From positions 43,682-107,681 of the forward strand of contig CASFKY010000053.1 of NCBI GenBank assembly GCA_949295465.1: a stretch of 64,000 nucleotides of DNA, given 5' to 3'. The notes beneath the pieces are model-generated. The model was not told where the DNA came from. It saw only the letters and a program-made list of their open reading frames with translations, and searched no databases. The stretch comes from an uncultured Oscillospiraceae bacterium. Lineage in GTDB: Bacteria; Bacillota; Clostridia; Oscillospirales; Ruminococcaceae. Numbering within the stretch: the first letter of the stretch is position 1; each line of letters begins with the position of its first letter. This document shows, in pieces, positions 1 through 44,209 of this stretch. Made by a program: the position numbers and the translations under genes.

Positions 1-850
1 TCTCGCCGGAAAAGACGGTGAGGCTCACCTTGTCCAGGGTGTGCACCCCTTCGGCACTCACGGCGCTCACATCCTTGAGCACCAGCCGGGGAGCCGGCGC
101 CTTGGGCAGAGGCCGGTCCAGGTGCAAATCCACCTTCTGGCCCACCATCATCTCGGTGAGGGAGTCGGCAGTGGCCTCGGCGGTGTTCACCGTGCCCACA
201 TACTCGCCCTTGCGCAGCACGCTCACCCGGTCCGACAGGGTCAGCACCTCGTGGAGCTTGTGGGTGATGATCACCACCGCCTTGCCGTCCGCCTTCATGT
301 TGCGCAAAACGGCAAAGAGCTTGTCCGTCTCCTGGGGGGTGAGCACGGCGGTGGGCTCGTCCAGAATCAGGATCTGGGCCCCCCGGTAGAGCACCTTCAC
401 GATCTCCACCGTCTGCTTTTCGCTCACCGACATGTCATAGATCTTTTTGTCCGGGTCCAGCTCGAAGCCGTACCTCTGGCAGATCTCCTTCACCCGGGCT
501 GTCACCGCCCGGATGTCGTAGCGGCCTTTTTCCTCATAGCCCAGAGCGATGTTCTCGGCGGCGGTAAACACGTTCACCAGCTTGAAATGCTGATGCACCA
601 TGCCGATGCCCAGCGCAAAGGCGTCCTTGGGGCCCCGGATTGTCACAGGTTTTCCGTCCACCAAAATCTCGCCGCTGTCCGGGTAATAGATGCCCGAGAG
701 CATGTTCATGAGGGTGGTCTTGCCGCTGCCGTTTTCGCCCAGCAAAGAGAGGATCTCCCCCTTTTTCACGGTCAGGTTGACCCCGTTGTTGGCCACCACC
801 TGCCCGAACCGCTTGGTCAGGTTGCGGCATTCGATCGCGTTCTGCTCCAC
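1..850 (-). CDS. ABC transporter ATP-binding protein, BMP/nucleoside type (partial, 3' end outside window)
   Basis: ATPase subunit of an importer that powers uptake of nucleosides or a related sugar-like substrate at the membrane. The visible 283 codons contain one full nucleotide-binding domain: Walker A GENGSGKTT, Q-loop HQHFKLV, a signature region MSVSEKQTVEIVK that departs from LSGGQ as is usual for the RbsA/YufO group, Walker B ILILDEPTAVLTPQE and the switch histidine in IITHKLHEV. A second domain begins near the window edge, as expected for the double-domain family of about 500 residues. The GTG start at 850 follows GGGAGATGATACA. It lies downstream of the BMP lipoprotein gene in the same direction, so the two form one transport operon; permeases should follow outside the window. 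Confidence 0.9.
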   Translation of the reverse strand, partial: MEQNAIECRNLTKRFGQVVANNGVNLTVKKGEILSLLGENGSGKTTLMNMLSGIYYPDSGEILVDGKPVTIRGPKDAFALGIGMVHQHFKLVNVFTAAENIALGYEEKGRYDIRAVTARVKEICQRYGFELDPDKKIYDMSVSEKQTVEIVKVLYRGAQILILDEPTAVLTPQETDKLFAVLRNMKADGKAVVIITHKLHEVLTLSDRVSVLRKGEYVGTVNTAEATADSLTEMMVGQKVDLHLDRPLPKAPAPRLVLKDVSAVSAEGVHTLDKVSLTVFSGE

Positions 851-37628: not shown

Positions 37629-39380
37629 TTATGGTGAAGCAATCCTTTCCAGATTGCACTCCAGCTTTTGGACGGGATACAGGCAAAGAGGGTCTTCGTA
37701 GCTCTCCACCTCTACCCGCATCTGCCCTTCCCTGCCAATGTCGGTATCCGTCACATACAGGCGGGGCCGGGGCCATGGCTCATAGAAATATATCTCTCTG
37801 GTGGCGTCGTACACCAGCGGATCATGACAGGAAAAGCCCTCCAGAGCAAAGTACTCCTTTGCCAGCTCCCCCATCCGGCGCGCAGAAAAGGGCGGTGACT
37901 CCCCCTTGTCCTCGATGGCGCTCTCCATGCACACCCGCGCCACCGTCACCGGGGAAAGGCTCTGGGCGCTGAACTGGTCCTGGTCCAGGTTGGCAAACAG
38001 CCGCACCGCCAGCCGGGAGGCTTCGCTGCCGCTGTCCGCCAGCCGGATCCCCTCATACTTTTTCTGGGGCATCAGGCAGTCGGCCAGCGGAGCCTCCCGG
38101 TATTCGGTCTGTGTGAGATGTGCCACCAGGGTACCGGCGCCCGCCTGATACAGCCTTGCCCCGTTCTCCACATCCACCTCCATGTACACCTCGGCGGAAG
38201 TGCTGCTGTTGCAGTACACATGGATCTTTTGCACGGTCAGGGAGAGCTCCGCCAGCGGCTGGTACAAAGGGCGGAAATAGTCGGCGTCCAGGCTGGCCAG
38301 CTCGGACAGTGCCTGCACATCGCCGGTTTCCAGCGCCCGGGCCAGTTGGCCGGCAGCCTGCCGAAAGGCTTCCTGCCGGCTTTGGGAGACAAAGGGAGAG
38401 GAGACCGGCAGATATACATCGCTTTTCAGTACCGGGTTCGTGGCCGTACACAAAAAGACCAAGGTCGCCGCACAGCCCAGCAGCACCTCTGCCCAGCGGG
38501 GCAGACGTTTCCACTCCAGGATCCCTTCCACCCGCCGCACCAGGTCCTGCTCGCCGAACGCCTCATAGGCAACCGGCATCAGCCGCCGGCCGGCCCAGTC
38601 CACCAGGGTCTGGGCATAGGTGATCTGCTCCCCTTTTTGCAGCACCCGCAGTACCCGCACATCGCAGGCCTGCTCGATGTCCCGGGCCAGCAGCACTCTG
38701 GCCAGCCAGACAAGGGGATTGAACCAGTGCAGCAGCAAAGCCAGATTCCCCGCCAAAAGCAGCAGGTGGTCGCCGCAGCGCACATGCGTCATCTCATGCA
38801 GAAGAATGCACTTTTTGTCCGGCGCCTCTTTCAGATTTTCGGGCAGGAGGATACAGGGGCGAAAAAAGCCGAACACCAGGGGGCCCTTGACCTTTTTGGT
38901 ACACAGCACCGGCACCGGCCGGCGCAGCCCCACCTGGCGGCGGCAGGCCTCGCTCTCCTGGCCCGACAGTTCATACGCCCCCTTCAATGCCCGTCGCAGC
39001 CCCAGATACTGAACAAAAAACGAGCACAGCAGCGCGGCCATCCCCAAAAGCCAGAGGCCGCACAGCGCCGCCTGGACCTGTTTTTCCGCCAGGGGCTGCC
39101 CGCCGGCCAGGGATTGCGCCACCCCCGCCGTGTCCAGATAATCCAGCGAGAGCAGGGTCCCGCCCGGCCGCTCCAGCCGCCGGTGGAGCAGATTGTAGAT
39201 GCTCAGCGCGCTGGGCAGCGAGTAGGGCACCAACAGCCGGAACAGCAGCGGCACCCAGAGCAGGCGCCGAAACCCGGCCGCCCCGTAGGGGCGCAGCACC
39301 CAGCGCCCTGCCAGCACCAGCAAAAGCAGCAGCGAGGAGGCGATGCTCATATTCAGGATGGCAAAAAAGAGTCGGATCAT
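37629..39380 (-). CDS. BlaR1/MecR1-like M56 membrane metalloprotease sensor
   Basis: Integral membrane signal-transducing protease (583 aa) that would cleave or inactivate its BlaI partner. Membrane helices lie near residues 3-25, 38-55 and 105-125, the zinc site HEMTH is at 195-199 with the distal glutamate in DIEQACD, and a further helix is at about 299-312. The outer C-terminal domain (residues 320-583) is not the penicillin-binding sensor of classic BlaR1: I see no SxxK...SxN...KTG set. Its ligand is therefore something else. The ATG at 39380 overlaps the blaI stop by four bases. The surface-protein gene follows 35 bases later. Confidence 0.88.
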   Translation of the reverse strand: MIRLFFAILNMSIASSLLLLLVLAGRWVLRPYGAAGFRRLLWVPLLFRLLVPYSLPSALSIYNLLHRRLERPGGTLLSLDYLDTAGVAQSLAGGQPLAEKQVQAALCGLWLLGMAALLCSFFVQYLGLRRALKGAYELSGQESEACRRQVGLRRPVPVLCTKKVKGPLVFGFFRPCILLPENLKEAPDKKCILLHEMTHVRCGDHLLLLAGNLALLLHWFNPLVWLARVLLARDIEQACDVRVLRVLQKGEQITYAQTLVDWAGRRLMPVAYEAFGEQDLVRRVEGILEWKRLPRWAEVLLGCAATLVFLCTATNPVLKSDVYLPVSSPFVSQSRQEAFRQAAGQLARALETGDVQALSELASLDADYFRPLYQPLAELSLTVQKIHVYCNSSTSAEVYMEVDVENGARLYQAGAGTLVAHLTQTEYREAPLADCLMPQKKYEGIRLADSGSEASRLAVRLFANLDQDQFSAQSLSPVTVARVCMESAIEDKGESPPFSARRMGELAKEYFALEGFSCHDPLVYDATREIYFYEPWPRPRLYVTDTDIGREGQMRVEVESYEDPLCLYPVQKLECNLERIASP

Positions 39381-39748
39381 TGTTCCTTCTTTTTCTCGTC
39401 TATCATCGCCTGCAGCTCTGCCAGCGTGGCGTCAGACACCTTGTCGGAATCCAGGAAATTTGCAAAGAGCCTGGTAAAGCTGCCGCCAAACATCTTGGTG
39501 AGCAGGGTGTCGGTCTCTGTCTGCTGGATCTCACGGCGGCTGACCAGCGGGATCACCTGATACTTCGGCTCCTGCCGGCAGACGGCGCCCTTGGCCTCCA
39601 GCCGCTTGAGCACAATATAGGTGGTACTCTTTTTCCACCCGTATTGTTCCAGCATGTCCTCTGCCATCTGGGCGGCCGGCACCGGCCCTTTTTCCCACAG
39701 ATATTCCATCGCATTGAGCTCCGCATCAAACAGTTTCAATGTGCCCAT
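39377..39748 (-). CDS. BlaI/MecI family transcriptional repressor
   Basis: Winged-helix repressor of 123 aa, normal family length. It opens LFDAELNAMEYLWEKGPVPAAQMAEDM, followed by WKKSTTYIVLKRLEAKGAVCRQE (recognition helix and wing) and a C-terminal dimer helix (DKVSDATLAELQAMIDEKK). The BlaR1 cleavage region is in the usual place near residue 100 (NFLDSD). The ATG at 39748 follows GAAGGGAG. It is first in the operon; two copies of an 18-base palindrome flank its promoter and are likely its operators. Confidence 0.93.
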   Translation of the reverse strand: MGTLKLFDAELNAMEYLWEKGPVPAAQMAEDMLEQYGWKKSTTYIVLKRLEAKGAVCRQEPKYQVIPLVSRREIQQTETDTLLTKMFGGSFTRLFANFLDSDKVSDATLAELQAMIDEKKKEQ

Positions 39749-40011: not shown

Positions 40012-40533
40012 TTATCCCTTTGCCTTGCTGGAAATTTTCTTGCGCATCCTTTGCAGGCACCGATACCCGCACTTTTTTGTCTGCTCATAGGGCAGCGACA
40101 GCATCCGGGCGATCTCGGCATAGGACATCTGATGCACACATTTCAGCAGCACGATGGTGCGCTCTTTTTGGGTGAATCCTTCCAGCAGCCAGGACGCCAG
40201 CAGATCCATTTCCGGGTTTTTTCTCTCCTCTTTCTGCTCGGCGGCAACCTGTTTTGCCCGCTCCCAGTTTCGGTTGCGCCGGTACAAATCCAGGGCTTTC
40301 CGATCGGCAATAGAGACGAGATAGTTTTTCAGGCTGCCCCTTTCCAGGCGGAATTTTTCCCACTGGAGGCAGAAGTCCGCCAGCGCCTCATATACGCACT
40401 CCCAGGCATCTTCGGGGTTTTGCAGGCGCCTGGCGCACACATACCACAACAGATGCCGGTACTGCTCCACCAGCAGGGCAGCCCCAGCCTCATAGTCCAG
40501 CCGCATCAAGCGCAGGATCTCCTCATCTTCCAT
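40012..40533 (-). CDS. ECF-like RNA polymerase sigma factor
   Basis: Sigma-70 family protein (173 aa) with only regions 2 and 4. Region 2 covers LLVEQYRHLLWYVCARRL...NPEDAWECVYEALADFC, and region 4 has ERTIVLLKCVHQMSYAEIARMLSLPYEQTKKCGYRCLQRMR. It is clearly related to the sigma part of the fused protein at 42458-44209 (shared EQY..L.W...ARRL.N.ED..ECV and IA.R.A.D..R patterns). No anti-sigma gene is adjacent. The ATG at 40533 follows AAGGGG; a GTG two codons earlier is less well placed. Confidence 0.85.
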   Translation of the reverse strand: MEDEEILRLMRLDYEAGAALLVEQYRHLLWYVCARRLQNPEDAWECVYEALADFCLQWEKFRLERGSLKNYLVSIADRKALDLYRRNRNWERAKQVAAEQKEERKNPEMDLLASWLLEGFTQKERTIVLLKCVHQMSYAEIARMLSLPYEQTKKCGYRCLQRMRKKISSKAKG

Positions 40534-40565
40534 CGGCACACCCCTTTGGGCGGCCCTTTGGCCGC

Positions 40566-40595
40566 CTTATAAGGGTATTCGGGAGATTGTGGCAA
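40566..40595 (-). promoter_or_regulatory. Promoter of the sigma factor gene
   Basis: Minus strand TTGCCA (40595-40590), 18-base spacer, TATAAG (40571-40566). A GGCGGCC/GGCCGCC hairpin (40550-40567) sits at the start point. Confidence 0.5.
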
Positions 40596-40647
40596 AAGGG
40601 GACAAAAATTTTTCTATTTTTTCAAAGATATACCGTTATATTATGCC

Positions 40648-41199
40648 TCAATACCAGTGGAAGCTGCCCTCTGATGTATTGGCGAAGCTCCCCCTCACAT
40701 TGGCATGATGGATGTAAATTTCGCGCCCGTCCGCCTCACAGCGATACCGACACTCGCCCGTTGGGCTGCGGTAGACCCTGCTCCACACCTGATTGTTGCC
40801 GTCGTAGATATACTGGGGCAGCAGCTCGTTGCCGCCCTCCTTGATGGGGGATTCCAAGTCGGGGGTGGGGCTGTCGTTTCCAAAGGTGCCGGAAAAGAGA
40901 GGGCCGATCAGGTACACATAGGCTGCGATGGCCAGCGGAATGGCCACCGCCAGGCCGATCACAATGCCGATGGCCTGGCCCAGCAGTTCTGGCTTGAAGT
41001 GGAACACAAACCACAGCACCCCGTGGATGGCCTCCTGGATCAGAAGGATCTTGAGCCCCACATGCTTTGCCAGGCCCCGGATCAGGGTCCACACCACGCC
41101 GATGAAGGTCATGAACAGGGCGAAGGCGACAAAGTCCTGGCCGGAGCCGGTCATCAGGCCGAGAAAGGTGAGAAAATAGGGAATGAACAGGGAGACCAT
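40648..41199 (-). CDS. Hypothetical membrane protein with a C-terminal soluble tail
   Basis: Unrecognised protein of 183 aa. It has about four membrane segments in the first 110 residues (IPYFLTFLGLMTG, FVAFALFMTFIGVVWTLI, IHGVLWFVFHF, AIGIVIGLAVAIPLAIAAYVYLIG), then a soluble tail of about 70 residues with YIYDGNNQVWSRVYRSPTGECRYRCEADGREIYIH. The tail looks like a short beta-rich domain. The ATG at 41199 follows AAAAGGAGG. It lies 16 bases after the TPR-like gene, so the two are one transcript, and the sigma factor gene follows with its own promoter. No function can be given. Confidence 0.75.
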   Translation of the reverse strand: MVSLFIPYFLTFLGLMTGSGQDFVAFALFMTFIGVVWTLIRGLAKHVGLKILLIQEAIHGVLWFVFHFKPELLGQAIGIVIGLAVAIPLAIAAYVYLIGPLFSGTFGNDSPTPDLESPIKEGGNELLPQYIYDGNNQVWSRVYRSPTGECRYRCEADGREIYIHHANVRGSFANTSEGSFHWY

Positions 41200-41215: not shown

Positions 41216-42346
41216 TCAGCTGAACAGGCCGAACAGGCCCTTTTTCCTGGGCGCCTGCCCGGGCTGCGTCCCGCTGCTCGGGGCAGGCGAAGCTCCCTGC
41301 ATAAAGACCGGGCAGGATTCCGCTGCCGGCGCCGCACCTGCCGGGTATTCCCCGGAAAGATCGGGCAGCTGCCCTTTTTTCAGGGCGGATTCCATCACTT
41401 TGCCGTATTTTCTCTGCATCTTGGCATACAGCTCCCGATAGTCGGCAAAGTCGTTCGCGTATGCGCTGCGCTTGTCTGCGCTCAAGGCGGAGGACAGCTC
41501 GGTGGCCCGGTCAAAATGCCACTTGGCGTTGATCAGCTTTTCGCTCTTTTTGGCATTGCAGGCATCCAGGCACAGCGCCGCCCGGAAGTACTCGGCCAGC
41601 ACCGGGTAACCGGCCCGCTCCATCAGCGCGCATCCCCGCACCGCCACTGCCAGCCAGTATGCCTGGGAGGCTGCATCCTTTTTGCCCCCCTCAAAGGCTT
41701 CGGTCGCTGCAAGATAGTTTATCAGGGCCTTGTCTGTTACGCGGAAACTCTTGGTCTCCCCATTCAGGCTCAGCGCATACATCATGTCAAAACAGCGGCC
41801 ATACCCCTGCCAGTCCGTGTCGTCCATCAGGCCGGGTTTTTCCGCCCCGATTTTTTCGTACAGGGCGCAGGCCTGGGTATACAGCCTCAGCGCCTGGCCG
41901 TTTGCCTTGCTGTACACGGCCACATTCAGGGTGCCCGCGGCCTCCTCCCGCATGCGGTCCGCCAGGATCTTGCAGGCGCCGGCCAGCAGTACGCCGCTCT
42001 CCGCATCCCCCCGCTGGTAGGCCTTTTCCAGGCTCTCGGCGGCCTGCTCCGTCTTACCCTGCGCCATCAGGGCGCAGCCCAGGCGGTTCCAGCCCCGCCG
42101 GTCCTCCGGGGCAGTGCGCAGGTATTTTTCCGCATAGCGGGCCGCTTCGCCCATGTCCTCCCGCATGCCCTTGCCCATAAAGCTGAAATAGGACAGGGAC
42201 AGCGCAGCCGCCGCCGCATCCTGCTTTTCCAGCTCCTGGGCCTTCTGATAGGCCTCCTCCAGCTTCTCTGCGTCGATCAGGGCCTCGATCTCTTCGATCC
42301 GGGCACGGCGCTCTTCCGGGGGCAGTTTTGGTTTGCCAAACAACAT
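41216..42346 (-). CDS. Tetratricopeptide/Sel1-like repeat protein
   Basis: Cytoplasmic protein of 376 aa rich in paired helices. Clear TPR-like repeats cover residues 1-130: EALIDAEKLEEAYQKAQELEKQ, ARYAEKYLRTAPEDRRGWNRLGCALMAQGKTEQAAESLEKAYQRGD. The middle is also helical and the end (PGQAPRKKGLFGLF) mirrors the start motif LFGKPK. Such proteins are scaffolds, not enzymes. The ATG at 42346 follows AGGAGGAAAAAAT. It sits between the sigma-fusion gene and the small membrane protein, suggesting a role in the same envelope-related locus, which is inference. Confidence 0.7.
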   Translation of the reverse strand: MLFGKPKLPPEERRARIEEIEALIDAEKLEEAYQKAQELEKQDAAAAALSLSYFSFMGKGMREDMGEAARYAEKYLRTAPEDRRGWNRLGCALMAQGKTEQAAESLEKAYQRGDAESGVLLAGACKILADRMREEAAGTLNVAVYSKANGQALRLYTQACALYEKIGAEKPGLMDDTDWQGYGRCFDMMYALSLNGETKSFRVTDKALINYLAATEAFEGGKKDAASQAYWLAVAVRGCALMERAGYPVLAEYFRAALCLDACNAKKSEKLINAKWHFDRATELSSALSADKRSAYANDFADYRELYAKMQRKYGKVMESALKKGQLPDLSGEYPAGAAPAAESCPVFMQGASPAPSSGTQPGQAPRKKGLFGLFS

Positions 42347-42427
42347 ATTTTTTCCTCCTGGTTCCGGGGAATGTTCCAGACATTCCCTCTCTGTTATTGA
42401 ATTCGCGCCAAACGCCGGAACCGGGAC

Positions 42428-42458
42428 AAAAAAAGAGCCGCTTTCGCGGCTCTTTTTT
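42428..42458. terminator. Terminator of the sigma-fusion gene
   Basis: Hairpin AAAGAGCCGC / GCGGCTCTTT with a 4-base loop, seven A on one side and six T on the other. Confidence 0.88.
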
Positions 42459-44209
42459 CAGGATGGCACCTGTATCTTCAGCTCAAAGGGATGTTCCCAC
42501 CAGCAGGTGAAGGTGTTGCCCGCCCCGGTAGTCAGGAAGGGCGAGGCGCTCATGGCCTCCCGGGCAAATTCCACATCCAGCCCTGCAAAGGCCCCCGCAT
42601 CGTCGGTGAGGACCCGGCAGGAGGACCAGCCCCCCACAAAGGATTCCGGCGCGGGCAGCTCTGTCCCGGCCGAGAGGGTCAGCCCCTCCAGGGTCAGGTC
42701 CTCCCGGCCCGCGAGCGCAAAGGAGACAAAGAACCGCGCGCCTGTCCCGCCCTCCGAAAGGCCGGAGGCAATGGCCGGTGGAAACTCCCCGCTTATCTGC
42801 ATCTCCAGGGAGGCACCGGGCAGCTCCAGCACCTGCTGTTCCCCCTTTGCCACCGGGATGCGAACATCCTGCGGCAGGACCGCGGTGAGCATCAGCCCGG
42901 GAATGTGCAGCGTGTACTCGCCGGGTTCCAGGTCTCCGAATTCCCAGCGGGAATATTGGTCCGACCCGTAAGAGCTGAGGCCGGCGGCCCGGCCCTCGTG
43001 CCGCCCGCCCTCCCGGTCAATCAGGGTCAGGGTGGCCTCATCTCCCGCCGGGTCATACCGGCCGGATATGATGCCCGGGTCCACCGCAAAATTCTCCCCG
43101 CCCAGGGGGTACAGCTCCACGGCAACGCCCGTTTGTGACCGGGTGGGGATGGCCAGCACACCGCCCAGCTCTCCCAGGCCATAGACAAATTCCTCCGGGG
43201 AAATCTCCTGGGCAGTATCCAGCACAAAGGGCAGGCTCAGCCAGGAAAATTCCAGGCTGGCCACCGCCGCCTGACCCTTTGGGCGGGGCAGGCCCTCAAA
43301 AACCAGCTCCATCGCCAGGGAGTCCGCGGTGGATCGGGAGGCGTCCATCACCGTCATGGTCGGCCGATAGGATTCGCCCCCCAAAGAGAGGGAGGCATCC
43401 TGGAGCAGGTACAGGTCCCAGGACACCGGGTAGGTGCTGTTCCCTACGACCATAGGCATGGTGGCCTCGGTGCCGGGGCCCCGGCTGAGCTGGATGGTCA
43501 GGCTCAGCCGGTCCCCGTCCCAGACGCCTTCACTCAGCTCCACACTGCCCAGATCATTCTCCTGGTACACATCCCGGGCAAGAATCGCAAAGGAGCTCTC
43601 GGGGTCTGTGTTGACCCCATATCCCGGCAATACGCCGAAGTACCGCAGCAGCGCGTAGCCGCAGGCTGCCAGCAGGGCCAGCAAAGCCAGCACCAGGCCC
43701 ACAATGAGCATCCGCCGCAGCCGTTCCAGGCCGCGTTGCTGCCTTTTTTTCACTGTCTCGTAGGGCAGATCCAGCGCGGCGGCGATCTCCTTCGCAGTCA
43801 TGCCCGCAAAGTATTTCATCCGCAGGATCTCCGCATCCTGGGGGGAAAGCCTAGCCAGCGCCTCCTCCAGGTCCAGCCGGTCCTCCGCGCCGAGCCCGGC
43901 GGGGGCGGCCAGGTTTTCGGGCAGCTCCTCCCCCTCAAATCGCCACCCGGCCCGCCACTTGTCCACCGCCCGGCGCTGGGCGATCCGGGCAAGCCACCCG
44001 CCCAGCGTGCCCTTCTCGGGCTGATAGCGGGACCGCTCGAAATAAAACTGCGCAAAGGTCTCGTTGACGCACTCCCGCACGTCCTCCTCGTTGCAGAGCC
44101 GGCGGGCCGCCACCGCCCAGACAAGCCCCCCGTACTGCTCCATGATGGCCGCCATCCCCTCCTCCGGGTCCTTTTCCAGCAGAGCCATCCGCTGTGCATC
44201 CGTCTCCAT
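42458..44209 (-). CDS. Membrane-anchored sigma factor: sigma-70 domains fused to a membrane helix and large outer domain
   Basis: A 583-residue protein of unusual build. Residues 1-165 are an ECF-like sigma factor: region 2 (AAIMEQYGGLVWAVAARRLCNEEDVRECVNETFAQFY), then region 4 (LSPQDAEILRMKYFAGMTAKEIAAALDLPYETVKKRQQRGLERLRR). Directly after it comes one membrane helix (167-187) and then about 395 residues predicted to lie outside, beta-rich, starting FAILARDVYQENDLGSVELSEGVWDGDRLSL, which resembles outer domains of clostridial anti-sigma proteins (DUF4179-like; inference). It ends with DEHPFELKIQVPS-like strands. Sigma factor and its receptor would thus be one chain. The frame is unbroken across the junction. 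ATG 44209 has GAGG close upstream. Confidence 0.85.
   Translation of the reverse strand: METDAQRMALLEKDPEEGMAAIMEQYGGLVWAVAARRLCNEEDVRECVNETFAQFYFERSRYQPEKGTLGGWLARIAQRRAVDKWRAGWRFEGEELPENLAAPAGLGAEDRLDLEEALARLSPQDAEILRMKYFAGMTAKEIAAALDLPYETVKKRQQRGLERLRRMLIVGLVLALLALLAACGYALLRYFGVLPGYGVNTDPESSFAILARDVYQENDLGSVELSEGVWDGDRLSLTIQLSRGPGTEATMPMVVGNSTYPVSWDLYLLQDASLSLGGESYRPTMTVMDASRSTADSLAMELVFEGLPRPKGQAAVASLEFSWLSLPFVLDTAQEISPEEFVYGLGELGGVLAIPTRSQTGVAVELYPLGGENFAVDPGIISGRYDPAGDEATLTLIDREGGRHEGRAAGLSSYGSDQYSRWEFGDLEPGEYTLHIPGLMLTAVLPQDVRIPVAKGEQQVLELPGASLEMQISGEFPPAIASGLSEGGTGARFFVSFALAGREDLTLEGLTLSAGTELPAPESFVGGWSSCRVLTDDAGAFAGLDVEFAREAMSASPFLTTGAGNTFTCWWEHPFELKIQVPS

Follow-up and report, generated by a model that had tools for sequence, protein, structure and literature searches.

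Whether a sigma factor, its membrane tether and a surface sensor can be joined in a single protein is the question raised by one gene in the 64,000-nucleotide stretch of Oscillospiraceae DNA analysed here (the window). The gene, which we call TM-sigma, lies on the minus strand, as do all features of the locus described below. The first-pass annotation had read it as one unbroken frame with a sigma half (residues 1-165), a single membrane helix and a large outer part, and this reading was confirmed, with a frame of 583 aa at 42458..44209. A search of the protein against Pfam and NCBIfam revealed matches above the cut-offs throughout the sigma half (43715..44209), namely Sigma70_r2 in region 2 (about 43940-44143; residues 23-90, E 1.5e-11, 44.3 bits against a cut-off of 24), Sigma70_r4 in region 4 (about 43715-43876; residues 117-165, E 3.9e-13, 49.1 bits against 24.1) and TIGR02937, the sigma70-ECF family (residues 19-168, E 2.9e-22, 79.1 bits against 42.9). 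No sigma region other than 2 and 4 is among the eight Pfam families listed for TM-sigma. With regions 2 and 4 both above their curated cut-offs, the sigma half is predicted to be an ECF sigma factor. An exact-peptide-pattern scan of the genome contigs gave two matches, which cover sigma residues only; such patterns can miss relatives.

A Kyte-Doolittle scan found a single membrane segment (best window 167-185), in agreement with the one helix claimed. In the AlphaFold2 model of full TM-sigma, built with 12 homologs (mean pLDDT 75.4, pTM 0.47), the predicted membrane helix (residues 167-188, 43646..43711) is continuous with that of region 4: helix 150-190 is unbroken, so that the recognition helix of region 4 extends into the membrane. 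The gap between the end of region 4 (residue 165) and the start of the membrane helix (residue 167) is about one residue, and the pLDDT is 72-77 across most of region 4 and the helix. The model thus upholds the earlier suggestion that the sigma is tethered by its own C-terminus right behind region 4, and this arrangement is conserved with the fusion. The helix contains a lipobox-like LAAC (residues 180-183, 43661..43672), whose Cys is present in 11 of 12 members of the fusion family, and is followed by a strongly conserved juxtamembrane stretch, RYFGVLPGYGVN (residues 189-200, 43610..43645), where the model is unsure (pLDDT below 50 at residues 192-204). The outer domain (42461..43609) is all beta in the models, with its first strand at residue 208 and its last residues at 581; the outer part is about 383-395 residues long, depending on the choice of helix end. 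The gene probably ends in a terminator consisting of a stem-loop and then a T run (42435..42452), which was read from the sequence, is absent from the mechanical terminator/promoter scan list and sits immediately before the next promoter motif (42401..42429).

A fusion created by sequencing error had been named as one danger to this reading, and homologs split at residue 165 as its sign. No homolog was split among the genomes searched, and the same fusion was found in 12 genes from 11 genomes of two families, each with one frame (open frames of 589-892 aa) across the sigma, the helix and the outer domain. Therefore, the fusion is not a sequencing error, and a split or frameshifted gene was ruled out. 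A query with the outer half found 5 of 197 genomes of the family, the own genome counted. A profile of the helix region matched 7 of 396 family genomes, six of which are counted as carriers; the seventh, G249, was dropped as a short match (query 7-46 of 200, frame of 140 aa, E 3.7e-4). In further sets, which overlap with the family set and with each other, this profile matched 6 of 394 genomes of the order, 4 of 20 genomes of the genus of G476, 4 of 250 genomes of the family of G476 and, in the class, 1 of 341 genomes, which is the own genome. Two other genes (L028 and L029) had been picked up via region 4 alone and were not kept as fusion genes; they are genes of the sigma2 type described below.

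The best-conserved stretch of the fusion family runs from PYETVKKR in region 4, through the helix, to LRYFG..PGYGVN. In three homolog pairs, omega was 0.07, 0.18 and 0.18 for the sigma half, 0.00, 0.13 and 0.14 for the membrane helix, and 0.15, 0.19 and 0.35 for the outer part, with synonymous change near saturation in the third pair. Judged by these ratios, both halves of the fusion are under purifying selection. A chance fusion or a degenerate gene without function would suit the rarity of the fusion (6 carriers among 396 family genomes) and the copy in G476, which is missing a start codon where one is expected and stops early. However, such an origin hardly accounts for 12 one-frame genes in two families, for the low omega in the three pairs tested or for the conserved neighbours and promoter sites, and we consider it extremely improbable. 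At the homologous start position, the G476 gene (L036 / L030, G476:C3) has neither ATG nor GTG nor TTG, and its early stop falls in the outer part. In a close relative of this copy, the fusion protein of G526 (L035, G526:C45), the helix Cys is replaced by Arg; the fusion gene may be decaying in this genus. The homologs of G008 and G127 (L014, L015 and L016; about 850 aa) match the outer domain of the window twice, which indicates that duplication can enlarge the outer part. The fusion proteins of G448, G765 and G526 are of similar length.

The outer domain had been likened to those of clostridial anti-sigma proteins, with DUF4179 as the profile to search for. A Pfam search with the 12 members matched 24 families, among which only sigma families and GerE (helix-turn-helix, seven members) occur in more than half of the members; GBD_IRG7_N was matched in six of the 12, with a best E of 7e-4. 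DUF4179 was found in none of the 12 at E <= 1, the outer domain of TM-sigma had no Pfam match, and a sequence search for solved relatives of this domain gave none up to E 10. When TM-sigma was aligned by hhalign with L006, the sole DUF4179 anti-sigma found in the genome, the probability was 0.3%. A DUF4179 identity by sequence was thus rejected. L006 itself (G000:C59) belongs to an ordinary separate pair, an ECF sigma of 170 aa and a DUF4179 anti-sigma of 479 aa with a score of 30.2 bits (cut-off 30.1) and one chance-level match among solved structures by sequence; the pair is a natural control for the fusion.

A Foldseek search using the full model placed 3FBQ ninth, as the first non-sigma match. 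This structure shows the part of BAS1627 that lies outside the cell; BAS1627 is an anti-sigma factor of the DUF4179 family and belongs to the ECF30 group (excerpts of PMC6066255). The outer part folded alone gave a better model (pLDDT 80.3, pTM 0.67 versus 0.47 for the full model), and with it 3FBQ ranked first (E 3.8e-4, probability 1.00), with a poor superposition (TM-score 0.20/0.26). All subsequent matches had E above 0.001, and many were Ig-like proteins. What stands of the claimed anti-sigma likeness is therefore a faint resemblance of the modelled fold only, with 3FBQ as the best solved match, and its DUF4179 side fell at the level of sequence.

Several parts of the locus escaped the first-pass annotation and are new here: a sibling sigma, an operon of a TPR-like gene and a membrane-protein gene, and a promoter motif shared by the two. 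The TPR-like gene (41216..42346, 376 aa) has TPR matches that are all below curated cut-offs, and the membrane protein (40648..41199, 183 aa) has no Pfam match at E <= 0.01. The sibling, sigma2 (40012..40539, 175 aa, or 173 aa from a start at 40533), is a soluble ECF sigma without a membrane helix (TIGR02937, E 7.3e-18). The order fusion, TPR-like gene, membrane protein and sigma2 is common to the own genome (G000), G031 and G151. In G384, sigma2 comes right after the fusion, with the TPR-like and membrane genes on a separate contig; a sibling sigma also comes right after the fusion in G448 and G765, which belong to the other family; and G008 and G127 carry sigma2 and the fusion on different contigs. 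Sigma2 is present in all six same-family carriers known, with orthologs in the other five that are 49-69% identical. When 80 genomes were searched with sigma2 at E <= 1e-15, every one of the 11 fusion genomes gave a match, to sigma2 or to TM-sigma, and the 69 non-carrier genomes, some of which are incomplete assemblies, gave none. Three genomes (G476, G526 and G691) have the fusion without sigma2. Of 197 genomes searched for the TPR-like gene, three have it, and each of these carries the fusion; it was not found in the carriers G008 and G127.

A tree with 26 rows places the 12 fusion sigmas and eight siblings in one clade (support 99/96), separate from six other ECF sigmas of the own genome. 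The siblings seem to branch inside the fusion sigmas, at a fork whose support of 94/95 is below the mark of the tool, and they stay together in only 73% of bootstrap trees. Three further features were seen around these genes. A pair consisting of a BlaI-type repressor and a BlaR1-type M56 peptidase adjoins sigma2 (37629-39748 of the window), and neither gene is matched in any other locus compared. At its C-terminus, the TPR-like protein has a KKKG(L/F)FGLF tail, conserved in the own genome, G031 and G151, that might bind the membrane. In both genomes of the other family, the sibling sigma is followed by a lipoprotein-like gene with a classic lipobox (L052:10894-12141 (+) and L056:5344-6600 (-)), a possible further member of the circuit in that family.

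The candidate promoter, TTGTCCC-N17-CGAAT, occurs 54 bases before the TPR-like gene (42401..42429) and 43 bases before the 40533 start of sigma2 (40577..40605). Reading of the upstream regions revealed it before both genes in the own genome, G031 and G151, and close variants in G384, G448 and G765; it was then found before the TPR-like gene of G384 and, as a CGAAA variant, before sigma2 of G127 and G008. Within the family, the motif is found at 11-12 of 12 bases and with a spacing of exactly 17 before sigma2 in six of six carriers and before the TPR-like gene in the four carriers in which that gene was found. In consensus scoring, 10 of 12 target promoters reached 11 or 12 of 12 bases, as none of 1000 shuffles each did. 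The sigma2 sites of the other family are weak, with 9 and 10 of 12 bases, and 175 and 13 of 1000 shuffles were as good. The motif is kept even where the target is on another contig than the fusion, as are the TPR-like operon in G384 and sigma2 in G008 and G127. In its -10 part, CGAA(T/A), the motif differs from the housekeeping TATAAT and is reminiscent of ECF -10 elements, for example CGTA and CGTC.

The strict motif also arises by chance. Across 47 genomes it has 14 sites, comprising seven target promoters, two sites elsewhere in carriers that look unrelated and five in 36 fusion-free genomes; the reversed pattern has nine matches in the same 47 genomes. The window contains exactly two strict sites, and with two mismatches allowed it gives four matches, not above chance (mean 4.9). 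One strict site lies about 50 bases before a 288-aa frame (L058, G010:C6); its genome gave no fusion, and the site may be due to chance or to another reader of the motif. At conserved positions, the strict motif has only two transcription units as targets, one of which encodes the sibling sigma.

No such motif was found before the fusion gene itself in G000, G031, G151 or G384. TATACT or TATAAT boxes can be seen by eye before this gene in the own genome, G031 and G151, and the mechanical scan of the window lists no sigma-70-type promoter there. Before the fusion genes of G008 C16, G127, G448 and G765 we found TTGTCC(C/T)-N17-ATAAT, with 2, 37, 1 and 1 of 300 shuffles each, respectively, as good; the site may be autoregulatory or equally an ordinary promoter.

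We propose that TM-sigma is a surface sensor and a sigma factor in one piece, in which cuts would free the sigma to act through the motif on sigma2 and the TPR-like operon, and we give this proposal about an even chance of being right. TM-sigma would be produced before the signal arrives and would sit in the membrane, the sigma half facing the cell interior and the beta domain the exterior. Since region 4 has its DNA-reading helix joined directly to the membrane segment, the sigma would probably be silent while tethered, forming no working holoenzyme. Since TM-sigma is without a cytoplasmic anti-sigma domain, we infer that tethering alone inhibits it. A signal sensed at the outer domain would lead to a site-1 cut outside the membrane, after which an RseP-type site-2 protease would cut within the membrane and free the sigma. 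The freed sigma would read TTGTCCC-N17-CGAA(T/A) and switch on sigma2, as a relay or amplifier, together with the TPR-like/membrane-protein operon. The genome contains a gene for an RseP-type protease (238.9 bits summed over the frame against a cut-off of 147.55). By analogy, release by proteolysis is most likely, much as in Pseudomonas IutY, which has a cytosolic sigma, a single transmembrane segment and a periplasmic domain and is activated by Prc and RseP (excerpts of PMC5411451). The site-1 protease of RsiV and RsiP is type I signal peptidase (excerpts of PMC6066255 and PMC8844934), and signal peptidase is therefore a fair site-1 candidate for TM-sigma. Against the proposal weigh the chance matches of the motif, its weak sites in the other family, the missing TPR-like gene in G008 and G127, the absence of a cytoplasmic anti-sigma domain, the empty scan for a sigma-70-type promoter before the fusion gene, the poor superposition on 3FBQ and the pTM of 0.47.

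The motif tracks sigma2 as well as TM-sigma, and the genomes with the fusion only are without the strict motif; therefore, sigma2 may be its true reader. TM-sigma would then not read the promoter and would be a membrane-bound anti-sigma or decoy-like regulator, its sigma fold serving to hold or tune sigma2 or RNA polymerase. A strict or one-mismatch motif accompanies sigma2 in all six same-family carriers, the strict motif was not found in G476, G526 or G691, and the fusion gene of G000, G031, G151 and G384 is without it. Sigma2 would in that case regulate its own gene, as many ECF sigmas do. However, TM-sigma has a complete ECF sigma as its sigma half, which is under purifying selection and scores well (TIGR02937 E 2.9e-22 versus 7.3e-18 for sigma2), and PYETVKKR of region 4 is invariant in 12 of 12 fusion proteins. 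In addition, sigma2 of G127 and G008 has a recognition helix almost identical to that of TM-sigma, and three genomes have TM-sigma without sigma2. We consider it rather unlikely that sigma2 is the sole reader, yet this possibility deserves to be kept in view.

TM-sigma could also be active while held in the membrane, recruiting polymerase to near-membrane promoters, with the outer domain altering pairing or position. It would then be a sigma counterpart of one-component membrane regulators like CadC and ToxR. This would be consistent with the absence of a separate anti-sigma domain, with the helix being the most conserved part, and with the position of both predicted targets beside the fusion gene in G000, G031 and G151, which would ease their reach from the tether. 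However, only about one residue separates region 4 from the membrane, so that polymerase has hardly any space; the predicted targets and the fusion gene are on different contigs in G384 (TPR-like operon), G008 and G127 (both sigma2); and IutY, the nearest studied protein in layout, needs proteolysis (excerpts of PMC5411451). Activity in the membrane thus appears improbable to us.

The conserved Cys of the helix suggests another way of release, in which the helix would serve as a signal of the lipoprotein type. Signal peptidase II would cut before Cys183, the outer domain would stay as a lipoprotein, and a site-2 protease would trim the tail and free the sigma. LAAC or LVAC is found at one position in 11 of 12 members, 16 nearly all hydrophobic residues lie between Arg166 and Cys183 in TM-sigma, an LspA gene is present in the genome (113.5 bits against 73.95), and type I signal peptidases provide the site-1 cut in RsiV and RsiP (excerpts of PMC6066255 and PMC8844934). 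However, G526 has Arg at the Cys position, the Cys is no better conserved than the helix residues beside it, and the residues after it are hydrophobic and conserved, unlike those of a lipoprotein in the neighbouring loci. Furthermore, a lipobox-like motif occurs in about 10% of other internal hydrophobic segments (9 of 91, nine sequences), as counted in a gene set taken mechanically from non-overlapping long frames. We see a slim chance for this route. A wider version is a long shot as well; in it, the recognition helix would double as the start of a lipoprotein-like signal, signal peptidase II would be the site-1 protease, and the freed sigma would hand over to a sibling read from the same promoter type.

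Returning to our proposal of a sensor released by proteolysis, TM-sigma gives the impression of a genuine sensor and switch in one piece, as far as its sequence and conservation tell. Its circuit is small and self-contained, could be rebuilt in a laboratory host and might serve as a one-gene surface sensor. Because it is without a cytoplasmic anti-sigma domain, TM-sigma asks directly whether membrane tethering of region 4 suffices to silence a sigma. Proteins that unite sigma and anti-sigma are rare. The first-pass annotation was right that the two are normally separate, yet one-piece forms are known in IutY and in ECF48, ECF52 and ECF53 (excerpts of PMC8999054 and PMC5411451). In a literature search that mostly covered papers outside subscription, we found no lipobox-bearing sigma and no one-piece sigma of the TM-sigma layout from Clostridia.

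IutY of Pseudomonas putida (ECF243) resembles TM-sigma in having a cytosolic ECF sigma, a single membrane segment and an outer domain in one polypeptide (excerpts of PMC5411451 and PMC8999054), and it is the only ECF sigma with experimentally characterized activation via proteolysis of a fused extension (PMC8999054, section 3.5.3). RseP acts on IutY, and a gene for an RseP-type protease is present in the genome of TM-sigma as well. Unlike TM-sigma, IutY has 374 aa and serves iron cell-surface signalling in a Gram-negative cell (excerpts of PMC5411451 and PMC8999054). The 24 Pfam families found in the 12 fusion members do not include FecR, the IutY type of outer domain, and no TonB-dependent receptor is among the six window genes scanned around the fusion. 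TM-sigma differs from IutY further in its all-beta outer domain, its sibling sigma and its distinct promoter motif. In ECF48, ECF52 and ECF53 of Actinobacteria, for example SCO4117, the ECF sigma is joined at its C-terminus to one or more membrane helices and an outer part, as in TM-sigma. However, these groups carry a zinc-finger domain, and ECF52 also has a proline-rich part and a carbohydrate-binding domain (excerpts of PMC5826349 and PMC8999054). In TM-sigma, region 4 passes directly into the helix with no such domain matched, and no zinc-finger family is among the 24 families of the 12 members. The ECF30 sigma/DUF4179 pairs, such as sigmaV-RsiV and BAS1627, include in the BAS1627 outer domain (3FBQ) the best solved match of our outer-domain model; these systems consist of two separate proteins (excerpts of PMC6066255), whereas TM-sigma, with no DUF4179 match in its sequence, is one chain.
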